A stretch of 52,696 nt of DNA from Rubrobacter aplysinae (GTDB lineage Bacteria; Actinomycetota; Rubrobacteria; Rubrobacterales; Rubrobacteraceae): assembly GCF_001029505.1 (NCBI RefSeq), contig NZ_LEKH01000018.1, forward strand, positions 1-52,696, given 5' to 3'. Position numbers and translations under genes: made by a program. Numbering within the stretch: position 1 is the stretch's first letter; each line of letters opens with the position of its first letter. The notes below the pieces were generated by a model. It ran no database searches and was not told the origin of the DNA. It worked only from the letters and a program-made list of their open reading frames with translations. Shown here piece by piece: positions 2,346 to 19,802 of the stretch.

Positions 2346-4328
2346 TTGGGTAATGACAAGGTGGACCCTGCCAGGGGCGACGGGTCCCGGACCAACGCGA
2401 CGCCGATGGTGGACGAGTACAGCCGCGACCTGACGCGGATGGCGAAGGACGGGAAACTCGACCCCGTCATCGGGCGAGCCGAAGAAGTCGAGACCACCAT
2501 CGAGATTCTCTGCCGGAGAACCAAGAATAACCCCGTGCTGATAGGGGATCCAGGTGTCGGCAAGACGGCAATCGTCGAGGGACTTGCTCAATGGATCGTG
2601 GGCGGCGAGGTCCCGGATAGGCTCGCTGATAAGCGCGTCCTCGCACTGGACCTCTCGGGAATGGTTGCGGGGACGCAGTATCGCGGAGAGTTCGAGGAGC
2701 GTCTCAAGAAAGTCCTGGAGGAGATCCGGGAGAGCCCGGATGATCAGATAATCTTCCTCGATGAGCTGCATACCGTGGTTGGAGCCGGCGCGGTAGAGGG
2801 CTCGATGGATGCCTCCAACATGCTCAAACCCGCCCTGGCATACGGCGAGATGCATCTCGTGGGCGCAACCACGGTAGACGAATACCGCAAGAACATCGAG
2901 AAGGACGCGGCGTTGGAACGTCGCTTGCAGCCGATCCTCGTCGGCGAGCCCTCCGTTGACCATGCTATCGAGATCCTGCGCGGCCTCAAGGACCGCTACG
3001 AGGCGCACCACCTCGTCAAGATTACCGAAGAGGCTATGGTCGCCGCCGTCGAGTTCTCCGACCGCTACGTCACCGGTCGTTTCCTCCCGGATAAGGCTAT
3101 AGATCTGATGGACCAGGCGTCGGCTAGGGTGTGCCTGCGCGCGAAGACCGGACCTGTGGACACGAAAGCTCTGGAAGAGGAACTGAGGAGTCTTCAGAGG
3201 GAGAAGGATCACGCGGTCATCTCCGAGGACTTCAGGAGGACGAAAGAGCTCAAGGAGAAAGTGGCTCGCCTGCGCGAGCAGATCGCGGAATCCGGCGGCG
3301 ATCATCGCCCGACGGTGGCGGAGGTGACGGTCGAGGACATCGCCGAGGTCGTCTCTCGGGCAACGGGCATCCCGGTGAGTCAGCTCACCGAGGAGGAGCG
3401 TGAGCGTCTGCTTCGCTTGGAAGGACAGCTTCACGAGCGCATCGTGGGCCAGGAAGAAGCCGTCGAGGCGGTGGCCGAAGCCATAAGACGCGCCCGCGCT
3501 GGACTCTCCGACCCGAATAGGCCTATAGGTAGCTTTCTATTCCTCGGTCCCACCGGTGTTGGCAAGACCGAGCTAGCGCGCACGCTCGCCGACGCTCTCT
3601 TCGGGAATGAGGCGGCGATAGTCAGGATAGACATGTCGGAGTTTCAGGAGAAGCACTCGGTGTCGCGGCTCGTCGGTGCGCCTCCGGGCTACGTCGGGTA
3701 CGAGGAGGCCGGGCAGTTGACGGAAGCGGTGAGACGCCGCCCGTATTCGGTGTTGCTGCTCGACGAGATCGAGAAAGCGCACCCGGACGTCTTCAACGTA
3801 CTGCTCCAGATCCTGGACGACGGACGGCTTACAGACTCCCAGGGTAGGACCGTGGATTTCAAGAACGCGGTGGTAATCATGACAAGCAACTTCGGGGCGG
3901 AGCGCATCAAGGCGCACGCCCAGCTAAACGAGACGTTCGAGGACCTCAAGGAGGACATGAACCGGCTGCTCAGGAGTACCCTGCGCCCGGAGTTCGTGAA
4001 CCGCATAGACGAGGTGATCCTGTTCCGCGCCCTGGGCAAGGATCAGATAGAGGAGATAGCGGGCCTCCTCCTCGACCACACTTCGAGACGCCTGAAAAGT
4101 CAGGGAGTCGCGATCGAGTTCACCGAGGCCGCCGTGGCACTGATCGCCGAAGAAGGCTACGACCCCGAGTTCGGAGCCCGTCCTTTGCGGCGCGCCATCC
4201 AGCGGAGGGTGGACAATGAACTCTCGCGCTTGGTCCTGGGCGGTTCGCTAAAACCGGGAGACAAGGTAGCCGTCGGCGCTGGCGAAGACGGACCTGGATT
4301 CGAGGTGATCCACGGAGCGGCCGACTAG
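2346..4328 (+). CDS. clpC: ClpC-type AAA+ unfoldase lacking its N-domain
   Basis: The 660-residue protein starts where ClpC normally has its linker ([22 protein letters not shown]) and contains both AAA+ modules. Walker A is at residues 67-74 (GDPGVGKT) and at 401-408 (GPTGVGKT), the middle domain has a UVR-like helix near 295-315, and a C-terminal D2 small domain follows. ClpC hexamers unfold proteins for the ClpP protease in the cytoplasm. Normal ClpC is about 810-850 residues; the missing N-domain survives as a broken relic just upstream. The TTG start at 2346 has no convincing ribosome site, and an ATG at 2406 is an alternative. Both ATPase modules look intact, so a shortened protein may still be made, but the gene may also be a recent pseudogene with a full copy elsewhere. 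Confidence 0.8.
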
Positions 4329-5093: not shown

Positions 5094-5561
5094 GTGGCAA
5101 AGGCCAGGGAGAAGCAGCTATCCCAGATGGTGAGCGAGCTTGGTCTGGACAAGCAAAACGGCGGTGCGATAGGTCGCCTGCTCAACCACGGAGGGCTCGC
5201 GCACGCCGAGGAGGGATCCGACGGCCGCATGAAGATCCAGATCCGGATTCCCGAAGACGAGTTGACCTATTCGCCTTCGATCACCGTCATGCCCCATGCG
5301 GGTGAACTCGAGATCGAGTTCTTCAACGATGACACGAACACTCACTGCGCGCAGGTGCCGAGTAATGGTGACTACCAGTGGATATGGTTGCCGAACCATT
5401 CAACCGGAAAGGTCACCGTCCAACTCGATGGTCCGGGCTATTACTGGTATAGCTCCAATGTAGGCAACGATGAAGGCCGGGGACTGATGGGGGCAATCGT
5501 CGTGATGGGGGAGGTTCCCGAGGAGGCTCGCCTCGACCGTCCGGCCCAGCCACGTCCGTAA
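5094..5561 (+). CDS. cupredoxin-like PQQ-associated protein (copper ligands apparently lost)
   Basis: The protein has 155 residues, a GTG start at 5094 and a strong AGGAAAGGAGG site. The C-terminal 100 residues have the cupredoxin pattern (ITVMPHAGELEIEFFND, then a His near residue 84, then GYYWYSSNVGNDEGRGLMG). I recognise it from memory as the small protein found beside PQQ dehydrogenases in actinobacteria (the MSMEG_3727-type family). Cupredoxins carry Cys and His in the last loop; here these positions read Ser120/121 and Asp126, leaving only His84 and Met132. There is no signal peptide. It lies 34 bases upstream of the dehydrogenase and is probably co-transcribed, so it may act as a partner or assembly subunit rather than an electron carrier. 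Confidence 0.75.
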   Translation: MAKAREKQLSQMVSELGLDKQNGGAIGRLLNHGGLAHAEEGSDGRMKIQIRIPEDELTYSPSITVMPHAGELEIEFFNDDTNTHCAQVPSNGDYQWIWLPNHSTGKVTVQLDGPGYYWYSSNVGNDEGRGLMGAIVVMGEVPEEARLDRPAQPRP

Positions 5562-5595: not shown

Positions 5596-7284
5596 TTGAC
5601 GCAGGAATACATAGACGCACCGTCGCCGGTCTCTCTCGGGAATTTGAGCACCACGACCGGGGATGCGCCGCCGGTAGCGAAGGACCTCACGTACGAGCGC
5701 ATCCTCGATGCCCGCTCGGAGCCGCATAACTGGATTACCTACTACGGTGCTTACGACGGGCAGCGCTACAGTCCGCTGGACCAGATCAACACGGAGAACG
5801 TCAAGCGGCTCACTCCCGCGTTTGTGTTCCAGTCCGGCTCGCAGGGCCTTCACGCGGGTCCCTCGACATACTCGTTCGAGGCCGCCCCGCTCGTCGTGGA
5901 CGGCGTCATGTTCGTCTCGGGCTGGGATGGCTTTGTCTGGGCTCTCGACGCCAAGACGGGACAGTCACTGTGGCAATATAAGCACGCGATCCCGTTCGAT
6001 ACCTCGCTGTGCTGCGGCAATGTGAACCGCGGGGTCGCCGTGGCGCAGGGTAAGGTCTTCGTCGCCACCCTGAATGCCCATATAATCGCGCTCGACGCCG
6101 AAAACGGCGAGAAGATCTGGGACACCGTACACGGTGACGTGCGGGCCGGTGAGAGCGCCACGGTCGCTCCCCTCGTCGTGAAGGATACGGTCATCGTGGG
6201 CAGCTCCGGCGGGGAGTTCGGGGTGCGCGGCCATCTCGACGCCTACAATATCGAGACCGGAGAGCGCGTCTGGCGGTGCTACATGGTGCCGAAGCCCGGC
6301 GAGCCGGGGTCGGAGACCTGGCCGGACGATGGCGAGACCTGGCAACGGGGTGGTGGAAACTGCTGGGTCACGGGCACCTACGACCCGGAGCTTAACCTCC
6401 TGTACTGGGGGACCGGCAACCCGGCGCCTGACTTCGACGGAGAAGTCCGTCCGGGCGACAACCTCTACACCGACAGCGTCGTCGCCGTGAACCCCGACAA
6501 CGGCGAGAAGGTGTGGCACTATCAGTTCACCCCGCACGACCTGTGGGACTATGACTCAAACATGGAGAGCATCCTCTTCGAGAAGGACGGGCGCAAGCTA
6601 CTCGGACACTTCGACAAGAACGGATACTTCTTCATCCTGGACCGCACGAACGGCGAACTCGTTTCGGTAACACCCTTCGTTGACCGCATCAATTGGGGCG
6701 AGATCGACTCCGACGGTAAAGTAACGCCCAGCATATACCCCGAGAAGGAGGGAGAAGAGGTCCACTTTTACCCGGGGCCGGCCGGGGGCAAGGAATGGAC
6801 GCACGCGGCCTTCAGCCCGAGGACAGAGATGTTCTACTGCCCGGTACAGGATACCGGTTCGACGATCGCGCGTAGGCGCAGGGAGTTCAAGGAGGGCATG
6901 CCTTACTGGGGAGCGCATGTCATCGTGGACTCCGAGGACATGAAGGGGTCCGTAAGCGCCTTCAACACGGACGGCGAGGAAGCCTGGAGGTGGGAGACTG
7001 AGATGCCGATGTGCGCGTCGGTGCTCGCCACGGCTGGCGACCTCGTGTTCGCGGGCGAACCCTCGGGTTATCTAAACGCATTAGATGCGCGCACCGGGGA
7101 ACATTTGTGGAAATTCCAGTGCGGAAGCGGCCACCACAGCAGCCCAACGACCTACAGCATAGACGGCAGGCAGTATATAGCCGTGCCGGTCGGCTGGGGC
7201 GCCTGGGTCGAAGGGTTCCTACCCGGAATGATGGGTGGACCTCATGGCTCCGGTATCTTCGTTTTCGCGCTGCCGGAGGAATAA
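5596..7284 (+). CDS. PQQ-dependent alcohol/methanol dehydrogenase, predicted lanthanide type
   Basis: This 562-residue eight-bladed quinoprotein oxidises an alcohol to an aldehyde. Visible features are the vicinal cysteines Cys139-Cys140 (LCCG), Glu186, the TGNPAP motif with the metal-binding Asn, and the catalytic HDLWDYD, where Asp318 is followed two residues later by Asp320. An Asp at that second position is the published marker of lanthanide-dependent XoxF- and PedH-type enzymes; calcium enzymes carry Ala or Ser there. The TTG start follows AGAGAGGAGC. No signal peptide is visible, although the family normally works outside the membrane. The pqq genes follow directly. Exact substrate is unknown. 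Confidence 0.85.
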   Translation: MTQEYIDAPSPVSLGNLSTTTGDAPPVAKDLTYERILDARSEPHNWITYYGAYDGQRYSPLDQINTENVKRLTPAFVFQSGSQGLHAGPSTYSFEAAPLVVDGVMFVSGWDGFVWALDAKTGQSLWQYKHAIPFDTSLCCGNVNRGVAVAQGKVFVATLNAHIIALDAENGEKIWDTVHGDVRAGESATVAPLVVKDTVIVGSSGGEFGVRGHLDAYNIETGERVWRCYMVPKPGEPGSETWPDDGETWQRGGGNCWVTGTYDPELNLLYWGTGNPAPDFDGEVRPGDNLYTDSVVAVNPDNGEKVWHYQFTPHDLWDYDSNMESILFEKDGRKLLGHFDKNGYFFILDRTNGELVSVTPFVDRINWGEIDSDGKVTPSIYPEKEGEEVHFYPGPAGGKEWTHAAFSPRTEMFYCPVQDTGSTIARRRREFKEGMPYWGAHVIVDSEDMKGSVSAFNTDGEEAWRWETEMPMCASVLATAGDLVFAGEPSGYLNALDARTGEHLWKFQCGSGHHSSPTTYSIDGRQYIAVPVGWGAWVEGFLPGMMGGPHGSGIFVFALPEE

Positions 7285-7362: not shown

Positions 7363-7449
7363 ATGGAGTGGAAGACCCCCGAGTTCGAGGAAATCGAGAT
7401 CAGAGCCGAGGTTACCGCATACGCCGCAACCTGGCCCGACTGGGACTGA
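7363..7449 (+). CDS. pqqA: PqqA precursor peptide of PQQ
   Basis: A short gene encodes 28 residues starting MEWKTPEFEE and ending ATWPDWD. The invariant Glu and Tyr that are joined to make PQQ lie in EVTAY, at Glu16 and Tyr20, the same numbering as in classical PqqA. The ribosome site AGGAAAGGAG is strong and well spaced. PqqE, with PqqD as carrier, cross-links these two residues, and the peptide is then cleaved and matured. It is first in the order A-B-C-D-E, 76 bases before pqqB. Short length explains why it is easily overlooked. Confidence 0.93.
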   Translation: MEWKTPEFEEIEIRAEVTAYAATWPDWD

Positions 7450-7525: not shown

Positions 7526-8416
7526 GTGTGGGTGCGTGTTCTCGGAGCAGCGGCCGGAGGAGGGTTTCCGCAGTGGAACTGCAACTGCCCACAGTGTCGG
7601 GCCGTGCGCTACGGCTCGCGGCCATGCCGCTCGCGCACCCAGTCGTCGGTTGCCGTAAGCGCCGACTATCGGCGATGGTTCCTGCTCAACGCCTCGCCCG
7701 ATATTCGGGCTCAGATCGAGTCCTTTCCGGCTCTGCACCCACAAGGGGTCAGGAATTCTCCACTGCGGACCGTATTGCTTACCGATGCCGAGTTGGATCA
7801 CAGCCTCGGTCTGCTGCTGTTGCGAGAGGTTGACAGCCTCGAGTTGCATGCCACCGAGGAGGTTCACGAGAAGCTATATGAAGGCACATCGCTGCTCCAG
7901 ACGCTCGGCGCCTACACCAGCGTCAACTGGCGTCCGGTCTCTACGGGGACGGAGGTACCGCTGGGGGATGGTCTGTCTTATCGGGCCTTTCGCGTTCCCA
8001 CGAACAAGCGGGCACGCTTTGGGGACGGTGAGGAGGAAGGCGTTGTGGGGTACCGGATCACCGACTCAAACACTGGACGGACTTTGGTGTACCTACCGGG
8101 CGCACAGGAGTTGACGGCCTCGGTGCGGGCTCAGTTGGAAGACTGTACATGCCTGCTCTTCGACGGGACCTGCTGGCAGGACGACGAGCTGATCCGGCTC
8201 GGCATCGCCGGCAAGACGTCGCGTGAGATGGGACACCTGCCGATCGGGGGCACCGATGGGAGCTTGAAGCAATTGTCCCAGCTCCCCATCGAGCGCAAGA
8301 TGTACATCCACATCAACAATACAAATCCTATCTTGCTCGAGGACTCGCCCGAGCGAAGCAGCGTCGAGGAGCACGGCCTGGAAGTGGCCGCAGATGGGCT
8401 AGAACTGGAGATCTGA
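7526..8416 (+). CDS. pqqB: PqqB, metallo-beta-lactamase-fold PQQ biosynthesis protein
   Basis: The 296-residue protein starts at GTG 7526 after GGAGG and begins [22 protein letters not shown], the typical PqqB start with its Cys cluster. The segment [18 protein letters not shown] carries the family's LDH motif. PqqB is proposed to hydroxylate or otherwise mature the cross-linked Glu-Tyr intermediate in the cytoplasm. Length matches the usual 300 residues. The stop is two bases before the start of pqqC, so the two are translated from one message. Confidence 0.92.
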
Positions 8417-8418
8417 AG

Positions 8419-9126
8419 TTGATAACAGCCGATACTGGCAGCTTTATCGAGGCTTTGCGTGCTCAATCTCAGCGCTACCACAGTGAGCATCCGTTCCATG
8501 CGTTGATGAATGAGGGGCGCTTAAACCGCAGCCAGATCCAGGGCTGGGTGGCAAACCGCTTCTACTATCAGGAGAACATCCCGCGTAAGGACGCCGCCAT
8601 TCTTGCCAACTGCCCCGACCGTGAGGTACGGCGGCGCTGGATCCGGCGCATCCAGGATCACGATGGAACGGCGGACGAAGAGGGGGGCATCGAGGCCTGG
8701 CTGCGCCTTGGAGAGGCTGCGGGACTGACGCGAGATGAGATGCTAGACGAGCGGCACATCGTGCCCGGGGTGCGGTTCGCCGTGGATGCTTACGTCACCT
8801 TTGCCAGCACCCGCCCCTGGGTCGAGGCGGTGGCTTCCTCGCTGACCGAGTTGTTTGCGCCGGATCTCATGTCGGAGCGTCTGGCCGCATTCGAGCGCTT
8901 TTACACCTGGATAGACCCCGACGGGCTCGCTTATTTCCGTGCCCGCCTTACGCAGGCCCCCCGCGACTCCGAGCACGCTCTCGAGGTGGTAAAGGAACAC
9001 TGCCAGACACCAGAGGAACAGGCGCGGGCTGTGGAGGCACTATCCTTTAAAAATGACGTTCTTTGGAGCATGTTGGACGCCATTGATAGAGCTTATCCGG
9101 GCGGCACTCAGGAGGGTGATTCTTGA
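8419..9126 (+). CDS. pqqC: PqqC, pyrroloquinoline-quinone synthase
   Basis: This 235-residue all-helical oxidase catalyses the last step, ring closure and eight-electron oxidation of the intermediate to PQQ using oxygen. Family patterns seen are [16 protein letters not shown] near the start, [24 protein letters not shown], and [16 protein letters not shown] with active-site His and Arg. The start is TTG 8419, immediately after pqqB. The length is slightly short of the usual 250. A gap of 136 bases follows before pqqD, unusual for this otherwise tight operon; I see no gene or hairpin in that gap. Confidence 0.93.
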
Positions 9127-9262: not shown

Positions 9263-9544
9263 ATGAGCACGGCAGTACTATCTACGAATCGTCCTCATTT
9301 GCCGCGGCGGGTCCGAATGGAGTGGGACCCAGTGCGGGAACAGCAAGTTCTGCTGGCACCGGAGGAAATCCTTGTCCTGAATCAAACAGGCGCAATCATC
9401 CTGGGCCTGTGCGATGGAGATAGAACGGTAGTAGAGATCGTAGAGGAGCTGCGCGGACAGTATAAGACCGTGGCCGACGATGAGGTGCGGGAGTTCCTCG
9501 CACGACTCGCCGCCAAGCGATGGGTGGAGCTCGGTGATGAATAG
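9263..9544 (+). CDS. pqqD: PqqD, peptide chaperone for PqqA
   Basis: A 93-residue winged-helix protein of the RRE (RiPP recognition element) type. It has the PqqD pattern RVRMEWDPVREQQVLLAPEE, LNQTGAIILGLCDGDRTVVEIVEEL and a final strand RWVELGDE. It binds PqqA and presents it to PqqE. The ATG at 9263 follows CAGGAGGG with good spacing. It overlaps the start of pqqE by 8 bases, which indicates translational coupling with its partner enzyme. Confidence 0.92.
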   Translation: MSTAVLSTNRPHLPRRVRMEWDPVREQQVLLAPEEILVLNQTGAIILGLCDGDRTVVEIVEELRGQYKTVADDEVREFLARLAAKRWVELGDE

Positions 9545-10628
9545 ACCGTATGGCATGCTGGCCGAGCTTACTTACGAATGCCCGCTCCACTGCCCGTACT
9601 GCTCAAACCCGCTCAATCTTGCGGAATACAACGAGGAACTGAGCACGGAAGATTGGCAACGGGTGATGAGCCAGGCTCGGGAGCTCGGAGTTTTGCAGCT
9701 TCACCTGTCGGGTGGCGAGCCTCTCCGGCGCCGCGATCTTGTAGAACTCGTCTCCAGCGCCCGCGACATAGGTCTGTATACCAACCTCATTACGAGCACT
9801 GTGGGCCTATCGCGTGGACGGGCGGAACAGCTAAAGGACGCCGGCCTAGACCACATACAGATCAGCATCCAAGCCGACGAGCAAGGCCTCTCCGACCGTA
9901 TAGCCGGTACTCCTGCCTATGACCGCAAGATCGAGGCGGCCCACATGGTCAAGGAGCTGGATTGGCCGCTCACTTTGAATGTGGTCCTCCACCGCCACAA
10001 CATCGACAGGGTGGGCCACATCCTCGAGTTAGCCGAGGAGTTGGGGGCCGACCAAATTGAGCTTGCCAATACCCAGTACCATGGCTGGGCCATGCGCAAC
10101 CGCGCGGCTCTACTGCCCAGCAGGACGCAGCTCGAGGATGCCGAGGAGATAGTACGCGCCGCACGTCGGCGCCTGAAGGGGAAGATGGAGATCATCTACG
10201 TTATCCCCGATTACTACAGCAAGTACCCCAAACCCTGTATGGGCGGCTGGGGCAAACAGCAGCTAACGGTGACACCAAACGGAAACGCCCTGCCCTGCCC
10301 CGCGGCGCATCAACTCGACCTTCCCCGGGCCAGCGTGCGCGAGCACTCGCTGGAGTGGATCTGGGAGGAGTCGACCATCTTCAATCGCTTCCGGGGCACG
10401 GAGTGGATGCCGGAGCCTTGCCAGAGTTGTGATCGCCGCGAGATAGATTTCGGTGGTTGTCGCTGCCAGGCGTTCCAGCTCACCGGTGACGCCGCACGAA
10501 CCGATCCAGTCTGCCACCTCTCGCCAGACCACGAGATCGTGGCTAAGGCGGTACGAGAGGCCAACGAAGACGCCCAGCCAGACGAAGCAGAGCTCATCCA
10601 CCGTGCGAATGCTGCCCGGCGGGCGTAA
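9537..10628 (+). CDS. pqqE: PqqE, radical SAM enzyme cross-linking PqqA
   Basis: The 363-residue protein has the radical SAM cluster motif CPLHCPYC at Cys15, Cys19 and Cys22, followed by LHLSGGEPLRRRDL for SAM binding. The C-terminal SPASM domain has Cys residues in CMGGWGKQQLTVTPNGNALPC, CQSC and GGCRCQ for the auxiliary iron-sulfur clusters. It forms the carbon-carbon bond between Glu16 and Tyr20 of PqqA. I chose ATG 9537 because it overlaps the pqqD end and gives the family length; a longer open frame upstream runs inside pqqD. Confidence 0.93.
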   Translation: MNRPYGMLAELTYECPLHCPYCSNPLNLAEYNEELSTEDWQRVMSQARELGVLQLHLSGGEPLRRRDLVELVSSARDIGLYTNLITSTVGLSRGRAEQLKDAGLDHIQISIQADEQGLSDRIAGTPAYDRKIEAAHMVKELDWPLTLNVVLHRHNIDRVGHILELAEELGADQIELANTQYHGWAMRNRAALLPSRTQLEDAEEIVRAARRRLKGKMEIIYVIPDYYSKYPKPCMGGWGKQQLTVTPNGNALPCPAAHQLDLPRASVREHSLEWIWEESTIFNRFRGTEWMPEPCQSCDRREIDFGGCRCQAFQLTGDAARTDPVCHLSPDHEIVAKAVREANEDAQPDEAELIHRANAARRA

Positions 10629-11079: not shown

Positions 11080-11634
11080 TTACTCTATAGTCTCCATCAT
11101 TATCAAGACTACAGAAAAGACAATCAGACCGACTCCAGAGGTCGCAGCGGCGACTGCGCGCCTCTGCATCGCCGGGATCACGCGCAGGAGGGCGACACCT
11201 ACGACAAGGCCGGTGAGAGCGAGTAGCGCGCTTGACCACGCTTGCTCACCGAAGGCTTGTTGCATAAGCGAACCCCCCGCCGGGTTACCGACCAGACCAA
11301 AGCTGAAGTTGTCGAGAGCCAGAATAATCGGCAGCACCCATACCGGCCATCCCACAGAAGCTGCTCCTGCTTGACGCGCCGTGAAACCAAGAAAAGCCAT
11401 GCCAATCAAATAGATACCCAGGATAGCCGGGAGCCCGATCTCCAGGATTTCGCCCATCTCGCCCGACATCATCAAAGGCGTAGCCGCCCCGAGCCCTACT
11501 CCTATAAGGAATCCGATGGCGTCGGCAAGGCCGAAAAACGCGGCGAGCAGCAGACGGTGCGACCATTTGCTTAGAAGCGGGCTGACTACTATGCAAGCGA
11601 TCAGGCTGTCAAGACCTAAAAGCAGGAACCCCAT
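11080..11634 (-). CDS. six-helix membrane protein, MntP-like topology
   Basis: The 184-residue protein is almost wholly hydrophobic with about six membrane helices arranged as two similar halves. Each half opens with an acidic residue inside the membrane (GLDSLIACIV near the start, ILALDNFSFGL near the middle). This resembles MntP manganese exporters and related LysE-like transporters, but I cannot place it firmly. The ATG at 11634 follows AAGGAGGAAAGGGAG, a very strong site. It stands alone with a hairpin terminator downstream. Export of a metal ion is a reasonable guess only. Confidence 0.65.
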   Translation of the reverse strand: MGFLLLGLDSLIACIVVSPLLSKWSHRLLLAAFFGLADAIGFLIGVGLGAATPLMMSGEMGEILEIGLPAILGIYLIGMAFLGFTARQAGAASVGWPVWVLPIILALDNFSFGLVGNPAGGSLMQQAFGEQAWSSALLALTGLVVGVALLRVIPAMQRRAVAAATSGVGLIVFSVVLIMMETIE

Positions 11635-18524: not shown

Positions 18525-19802
18525 GTGTTTGGAAGTTTGGATAGCAATGATAGAGGCGATACACGGTCAGGGCACATAGAAGCCGAGGACTACTCTGATG
18601 ATCACTCTATTAGTATAAGTGCCACCGACTCCGACAATGATGCTACTGCTGAGTCTAACGAGCAGGTCATCGAGGTACTGCCGGAGCATGTTTCAGTGCA
18701 GCCTCTGGACTCTGTGGACGATGAGCTGCCCGAGCCTGCTCAGTCAGATCGCAAGGTGGCTCACCGCCTGGAGCGGTTCTCGATGGCCGGCTCAAAGCAG
18801 GAGCTCATCGTTTCAGAGAGCCTGGCTCCGGATGCGAACCCGGTCTCGGCGTATCTCGCCGGTCTTTCCGAGAGCTCGTGCAGGCCGATGCGCACCAATC
18901 TTGAGAATATTGCACATTTCGTCTCCGGTGGCCGGGCTTCGGCGATGCAGCTCGCCTGGTGGAACCTGCGCTTTCAGCACACTTCGCTCATCCGCTCCAC
19001 TCTGGCCGAGACCTACGCTCCTTCCACGGCGAACCTGATGCTCTCGGCGCTGCGAGGGGTGTTGCGGGCCTGCTTCAGGCTCGGCTACATGTCCGCCGAC
19101 GACTACGGGCGCGCGGCGGACGTGGGCGCGGTGCGTGGCAGCCGCCTCCCCCCCGGCCGCTCCATAGACCGGGGCGAGCTGTTCGAGTTATTCCGAATAT
19201 GCTACACGGATAACAAAAAGGCCCGGGGGGCACGGGACGCCGCTGCTCTTGCACTTCTGTACGTGTGTGGTCTCCGGCGCAGCGAGCTGGTCTCTTTGGA
19301 TGTCTCGGACTACGATCCCGAAAGCTTGGAAGTAAGGATAAGGGGCAAGGGAAACAAGGAGAGGCTCGGCTATGCCGAAGGCGGCGCTGACAGGGCGATA
19401 AACCAGTGGCTCTCTATTAGAGGAGATACGGAAGGTGCGTTGCTACTGCCCATCAACAAGGGCGACAGGATCGTCCATGAGCGCCGGGATGGTGGCGGAG
19501 ACAACTGTGGAGAGGTTCATCCGGCTAGGATGACCGACCAGGCGATCTACGACGTGGTGCGGCGCCGCCAGAGAGAGGCCGGGGTGAAGCACCTCTCGCC
19601 ACACGACTTTAGAAAGACATTCATAGGGGATCTACTGGATGCGATAGGAGATCTCTCTGCGGCGCAGCAGCTCGCCGGGCACGCAGATCCCTCCACCACC
19701 GCGCGCTACGACCGGCGCGGGGAGCGGGCAAAGAGGAAGGCTGCGAGCCACCTGCACGTGCCCTACTTCGAGAACAGGCACAGTGGCCCCGGGCAATCGT
19801 GA
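18525..19802 (+). CDS. tyrosine recombinase/integrase with acidic N-terminal extension
   Basis: The catalytic residues of a XerC/XerD-type recombinase are all present: Arg251 in GLRRSELVSL, Lys in RGKGNKER, His360 and Arg363 in HDFRKTF, His in AGHADPSTTARY and the nucleophile Tyr395. Residues 100-190 form the SAM-like core-binding domain. The first 85-90 residues from GTG 18525 are rich in Asp, Glu and Ser and unlike the rest in codon use. A start at ATG 18783, with GGAG upstream, would give a standard enzyme of about 340 residues. No tRNA or attachment site is seen, and no other phage or transposon genes adjoin it. Confidence 0.82.
   Translation: MFGSLDSNDRGDTRSGHIEAEDYSDDHSISISATDSDNDATAESNEQVIEVLPEHVSVQPLDSVDDELPEPAQSDRKVAHRLERFSMAGSKQELIVSESLAPDANPVSAYLAGLSESSCRPMRTNLENIAHFVSGGRASAMQLAWWNLRFQHTSLIRSTLAETYAPSTANLMLSALRGVLRACFRLGYMSADDYGRAADVGAVRGSRLPPGRSIDRGELFELFRICYTDNKKARGARDAAALALLYVCGLRRSELVSLDVSDYDPESLEVRIRGKGNKERLGYAEGGADRAINQWLSIRGDTEGALLLPINKGDRIVHERRDGGGDNCGEVHPARMTDQAIYDVVRRRQREAGVKHLSPHDFRKTFIGDLLDAIGDLSAAQQLAGHADPSTTARYDRRGERAKRKAASHLHVPYFENRHSGPGQS

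Follow-up and report, generated by a model that had tools for sequence, protein, structure and literature searches.

A PQQ dehydrogenase family of Actinobacteria with a lanthanide-type aspartate, no export signal and a probable location inside the cell

The window analyzed in this study, a stretch of 52,696 nucleotides from Rubrobacter aplysinae, encodes a PQQ-dependent dehydrogenase of the methanol/ethanol type (5596-7284, forward strand) that has no export signal and carries Asp320, the aspartate found in lanthanide-dependent enzymes. We consider it rather likely that this protein belongs to a cytoplasmic quinoprotein system that probably uses a lanthanide and is reoxidized without a periplasmic cytochrome c. 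To our knowledge, the characterized PQQ dehydrogenases and lanthanide enzymes all work outside the cytoplasmic membrane. We infer the location, the metal and the electron acceptor of the system, as well as the roles of its partner protein and of a linked transporter, from what was observed: the sequence identity, the metal ligands, the absence of a signal, the gene order, the linkage to transporter genes and the failure to detect a class I cytochrome c in four Rubrobacteraceae genomes.

A sequence-only reading of this DNA had proposed a PQQ dehydrogenase at 5596-7284, and both the coordinates and the identity were borne out. The open reading frame encodes 562 amino acids from a TTG start preceded by a GAGGAG ribosome site, and the protein passes the TIGR03075 profile with 637 bits (cut-off 480). 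It is the single TIGR03075-type dehydrogenase in the genome (3.19 Mb, 98.9% complete). Its nearest named relatives, from uncultured Rubrobacteraceae and Rubrobacter marinus, are 84-89% identical. The best solved structure by sequence was PedH (6zcv, 382 bits), which was also the best fold match of the AlphaFold model (pLDDT 77.5; TM 0.84, 37% identity), followed by XoxF. The family set consisted of 65 non-truncated sequences, all from Actinobacteria, the only phylum in which the signal-less family has been found so far; in the tree they formed one clade with 100/100 support. XoxF (4mae, 6dam, 6oc5) shares the TIGR03075 assignment, the WDYD motif, the vicinal Cys pair and the propeller with the window dehydrogenase, but forms a separate clade. 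A 59%-identical fragment from another actinobacterial lineage (locus L105, G167:C2), with the motif WDFDGNNE and an in-frame TGA, is possibly a decayed or more distant member.

The residues of the PQQ and metal site were assigned by alignment with XoxF (4mae), PedH (6zcv) and the quinohaemoprotein alcohol dehydrogenase of Comamonas (QH-ADH; 1kb0). The catalytic Asp318 (codon 6547-6549), Tyr319 and Asp320 (codon 6553-6555) occupy 6547-6555 on the forward strand, within the motif PHDLWDYDSN. Residues C139, C140, R145, W257, E207, N275 and D318 are each conserved in 65/65 family sequences; the vicinal Cys139-Cys140 pair (6010-6015, forward strand) is also present in XoxF, PedH and QH-ADH. Asp320, the extra aspartate that marks lanthanide-dependent PQQ dehydrogenases (XoxF, PedH, ExaF), is likewise found in 65/65, whereas the calcium-type QH-ADH has Thr at this position. 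One of the six patterns used to search for relatives was WDYDSNME, and the search was thus biased towards Asp320. Since all 65 relatives keep the aspartate, 38 of them without this search pattern, its presence is not due to chance. Relatives were also reached independently through the partner family; the motif region was read for eight of these, and all eight have Asp320. The lanthanide marker two residues past the catalytic Asp318, on which the sequence-only reading had relied, is therefore present, and it completes a ligand set (E207, N275, D318, D320) shared with PedH of Pseudomonas putida (6zcv, 6zcw), the lanthanide Asp included. Judging from these ligands, the metal of the family is probably a lanthanide.

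The region upstream of the dehydrogenase was then considered. The reading frame ahead of the TTG at 5596 is open for only 30 codons, to a stop at 5503. These codons read WGRFPRRLASTVRPSHVRKAPIERNREEHQ and are Arg-rich and not hydrophobic. An N-terminal signal encoded upstream of 5596, which would have contradicted the sequence-only reading, was looked for in these 30 codons, and neither a signal nor an ATG, GTG or TTG start was found. The conserved N-terminus of the family (MT.EYVDA...) begins at the start codon, which is mostly ATG and in most cases follows a ribosome site. In several relatives (loci L020, L021, L044, L048, L060, L069, L072 and L084), an in-frame stop lies 1-5 codons ahead of the conserved start, and a missed start is ruled out for this reason. 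The suggestion that the true start lies elsewhere is thus refuted. A hidden upstream start or a frameshifted signal was rejected as well, on the basis of the short signal-less upstream frame and the upstream stops of the relatives.

No Sec, Tat or lipoprotein signal was found in the 65 non-truncated dehydrogenases (0/65). A simple Tat motif within the first 40 residues was present in 0/65 dehydrogenases and in one partner only. The peak hydropathy of the N-terminal 45 residues (12-residue window) had a median of 0.49 and a maximum of 1.70 in the family. Eight annotated proteobacterial homologues, which served as positive controls and have recognizable signal peptides, gave 1.43-2.52. By this crude measure, a few family members overlap the lowest of these controls, but their N-termini, MTLEYVDAGEAIDHVALSAVGG for example, include acidic residues and do not qualify as signal peptides. 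PQQ relatives from the same phylum do have signals, which are lipoprotein-like in L101 and L103, Tat-like (DRRSFL) in L104 and Sec-like in L106. Since signals are present in the same-phylum and proteobacterial relatives and in 0/65 sequences here, their absence is a conserved trait and not an annotation error. The statement that the dehydrogenase lacks a signal peptide and a Tat motif therefore holds for the family as a whole, and the corresponding statement on the cupredoxin-like neighbor holds for 64/64 family partners. Because an export signal is conservedly absent, the dehydrogenase is probably located inside the cell. Among the three explanations offered by the sequence-only reading, a cytoplasmic enzyme is the best supported, given 65/65 dehydrogenases and 64/64 partners without a signal and exported enzymes of the same phylum with one.

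The partner gene (5094-5561, forward strand, GTG start, no signal) lies directly upstream of the dehydrogenase gene in nearly all loci; a stop is found 11 codons ahead of its start. The protein belongs to the MSMEG_3727 family, with 247.8 bits for TIGR04339 (cut-off 75) and 251.8 bits for PF23509 (cut-off 27). Its AlphaFold model (pLDDT 82.8) gave auracyanin and CuA domains as the best Foldseek matches, which indicates the cupredoxin fold. The description of the partner as cupredoxin-like is thus correct for the fold, shared with the auracyanin and CuA cupredoxins (6kol, 2cua), but not for the canonical copper ligands. In an alignment of 64 sequences, the only candidate soft ligands left were H84 (64/64) and H68 (61/64). 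The canonical Cys is replaced by Ser121 (64/64), and the strand that normally carries Cys, His and Met reads S121...N125-D126-E127-G...L131, all nearly invariant. The His-Cys-His(-Met) set of type 1 copper was not found in the 64 sequences, which have no second His in the Cys region. In comparison with the auracyanin and CuA proteins, the partner has one N-terminal His, Ser in place of Cys and no second His. A role as a blue copper electron carrier was rejected because the copper ligands are missing. The conserved oxygen ligands might, speculatively, point to a hard-metal or structural role.

Behind the pair lie the genes for PQQ synthesis, in the order partner, dehydrogenase, pqqA, pqqB, pqqC, pqqD and pqqE, all on the forward strand. 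The precursor peptide PqqA (MEWKTPEFEEIEIRAEVTAYAATWPDWD; 7363-7449) has the Glu and Tyr of PqqA peptides, and its position is conserved in relatives. It is followed by pqqB (7526-8416; TIGR02108, 399 bits), pqqC (8419-9126; TIGR02111, 341 bits), pqqD (9263-9544; TIGR03859, 84.6 bits, cut-off 46) and pqqE (9537-10628; TIGR02109, 553.7 bits over residues 20-366). Since the homology begins at residue 20, pqqE probably starts at the ATG at 9537 and not at the mechanical ORF start at 9480. A pqqE gene lies near the dehydrogenase gene in 30 of the loci examined, including the window, and in genomes without an adjacent pqq cluster a true pqqE was present elsewhere (7/7 searched). Since all-by-all clustering of neighboring ORFs was polluted by antisense ORFs in this GC-rich DNA, codon-position GC was used for the neighbor genes. 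On the other side of the pair, and divergent from it, is a gene with a ChrB N-terminal domain (PF20229; 4423-4983, reverse strand); L046, L072 and L074 also have ChrB-like genes close to the pair. The window further encodes a ClpB/ClpG-like AAA chaperone of 660 residues (2346-4328), which falls short of the ClpB cut-off and is missing the region of the usual N-terminal domain. A phage-type integrase gene (18525-19802) is followed by genes for an ABC ATPase and, together with a solute-binding protein, a glycoside hydrolase 38.

Two unrelated families of cation transporters recur in the same neighborhood. Of the family loci, 28 contain MntP (PF02659) and 21 a member of the Na/Ca exchanger family (PF01699); no locus contains both, and the transporter gene is often directly behind pqqE. 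Ten family genomes were searched as a whole. In the six with MntP (G396, G400, G403-G405 and G408), every MntP gene was at the dehydrogenase locus (6/6), and the exchangers of three other genomes were also located there; the chance of a single gene landing in the 13.7-kb stretch is about 0.1-0.4% per genome. These gene neighborhoods suggest that a dedicated metal transporter often accompanies the signal-less dehydrogenase gene, and this linkage is a new finding. Both transporter types are annotated for export, so the linkage does not show lanthanide import. In the window, all that occupies the transporter slot is a remotely MntP-like protein (11080-11634), encoded on the opposite strand beside the cluster. 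Against a profile built from MntP sequences at related loci, this membrane protein, distantly similar to the MntP/LysE superfamily, scores 33.8 bits (hhalign probability 95%); it does not reach the PF02659 cut-off and has no Pfam or NCBIfam assignment. We regard it as a tentative member of the system.

In characterized relatives, electrons are passed to a periplasmic cytochrome c. Class I cytochrome c (PF00034, PF13442) gave no match in the genome of the window and in three other Rubrobacteraceae, among them the complete chromosome of R. marinus, while the positive controls were detected. Since family members of other orders do have PF00034/PF13442 cytochromes, the argument against the usual acceptor is limited to Rubrobacteraceae. 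PedH-type relatives have a signal peptide and function in the periplasm with cytochrome c, whereas the family described here has no signal and its Rubrobacteraceae members have no detectable class I cytochrome c. The XoxG and XoxJ genes of XoxF systems were not seen among the conserved neighbors of the family loci. In 37 loci, KatG is encoded beside the dehydrogenase pair (for example L069:3070-5304, L055 and L065), which suggests that the dehydrogenase yields H2O2 in those lineages. No KatG was found in the genome of the window, and a scheme with O2 and KatG cannot be general for this reason; KatG was thus rejected as a general component despite the 37 loci. In 46 loci, the dehydrogenase is flanked by regulators that combine a DhaR-like N-terminal part with a C-terminal LytTR DNA-binding domain (for example L069:7984-9378, reverse strand; L069:9765-11216; L023:3868-5301, reverse strand); such regulators are not near it in the window. 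It is possible that they are alcohol or metal sensors. Ferulate/vanillin-type genes beside some Saccharopolyspora loci (L039, L043) were considered as a clue to the substrate; they occur in only 2-4 loci.

On the reading we prefer, the pair at 5094-5561 and 5596-7284 would form a self-contained system together with the pqqABCDE genes behind it. Both the synthesis of PQQ and its insertion into the dehydrogenase would take place in the cytoplasm, and the enzyme would at no point be exported. The enzyme, with PedH as its closest characterized relative, would oxidize alcohols by the usual hydride-transfer chemistry of PQQ. Its metal, held by E207, N275, D318 and D320, would most likely be a light lanthanide. 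The copper-less partner would be obligate; it may be a structural subunit, serve for docking or carry a metal through oxygen ligands, but would not be a copper electron carrier. Reduced PQQ may be reoxidized by a respiratory acceptor facing the cytoplasm, or by O2 with KatG clearing H2O2. The linked transporter of the MntP or Na/Ca exchanger type might control how much of the metal, or of a cation competing with it, is present in the cytoplasm. The most specific version is doubtful in our judgment, namely an actinobacterial cytoplasmic lanthanoenzyme that receives PQQ and lanthanide inside the cell, depends on a dedicated lanthanide transporter of the MntP/Na-Ca-exchanger type for supply or protection and is reoxidized without cytochrome c through the copper-less partner or O2.

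The strict conservation of Cys139-Cys140 (65/65) counts against a cytoplasmic location. The vicinal Cys pair forms a disulfide in characterized enzymes, and the cytoplasm would tend to reduce it. Non-classical release of signal-less proteins sometimes occurs, and exporters of the TerC type have been proposed to metallate exoenzymes. It could be argued along these lines that the dehydrogenase and its partner act outside the membrane after folded, non-classical or piggy-back export, with the linked cation exporter supplying the metal there. The Cys pair would favor such an oxidizing compartment, MntP and Na/Ca exchangers usually export cations, and all characterized relatives are extracytoplasmic, which PMC10875860 states for XoxF. 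We nevertheless regard this explanation as unlikely. As to another export route, which the sequence-only reading had also raised, neither the dehydrogenase nor the partner shows a convincing type VII WxG motif, lipobox or sortase motif; a YxxxD/E match is present in 57 dehydrogenases but is misplaced, lying near residue 50, where the folded domain begins, and not behind a helical hairpin. No protein with a Tat signal that could serve as an export partner was seen in the conserved cluster, a conserved hydrophilic N-terminus takes the place of a signal in 65/65, and the usual cytochrome acceptor was not found in Rubrobacteraceae.

Asp320 notwithstanding, a cytoplasmic enzyme might also work with Ca2+ or a different cation, and the transporter would then handle Ca2+ or Mn2+. 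The linked transporter types are named for these ions, and no gene for lanthanide uptake or binding was seen in the cluster. The invariance of Asp320, as in XoxF and PedH and in contrast to the Thr of the Comamonas enzyme, and the fact that these two lanthanide enzymes are the closest solved structures make this explanation rather improbable. That a misannotated start or an assembly error hides a signal, to which the TTG start of the window gene could point, is hardly credible and is refuted by comparison, given the same N-terminus, mostly with ATG, in the 65 sequences, the ribosome sites and the nearby upstream stops in several relatives.

Lanthanide enzymes are often regarded as a gram-negative trait. 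The same gene pair with the same association to PQQ synthesis genes is known from Mycobacterium smegmatis as MSMEG_3726/MSMEG_3727 (TIGR04339, PF23509). A 2011 paper pointed it out as the only PQQ enzyme of this organism, located beside the synthesis genes (PMC3023750), and it was mentioned again in 2019 (PMC6529628); previously, in 2011 and in later family models, it was only named as PQQ-associated. Our search, which covered literature outside subscription, found nothing on the location, metal, acceptor or transporter linkage of the signal-less family, and nothing relevant on cytoplasmic quinoproteins, MntP with lanthanides or rare-earth alcohol dehydrogenases of gram-positive bacteria. A 2024 paper (PMC10875860) described XoxF as missing from gram-positive genomes and MAGs, with reasoning from its periplasmic location, and for other phyla it proposed that NRAMP transports lanthanides. 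If the cytoplasmic, lanthanide-using reading is true, rare-earth catalysis would take place inside gram-positive cells by way of a widespread actinobacterial family. It would also point to an uncharacterized cytoplasmic electron acceptor for PQQ, and MntP and the Na/Ca exchangers would be two candidate transporter families for the handling of lanthanides (or Ca/Mn) in the cytoplasm.
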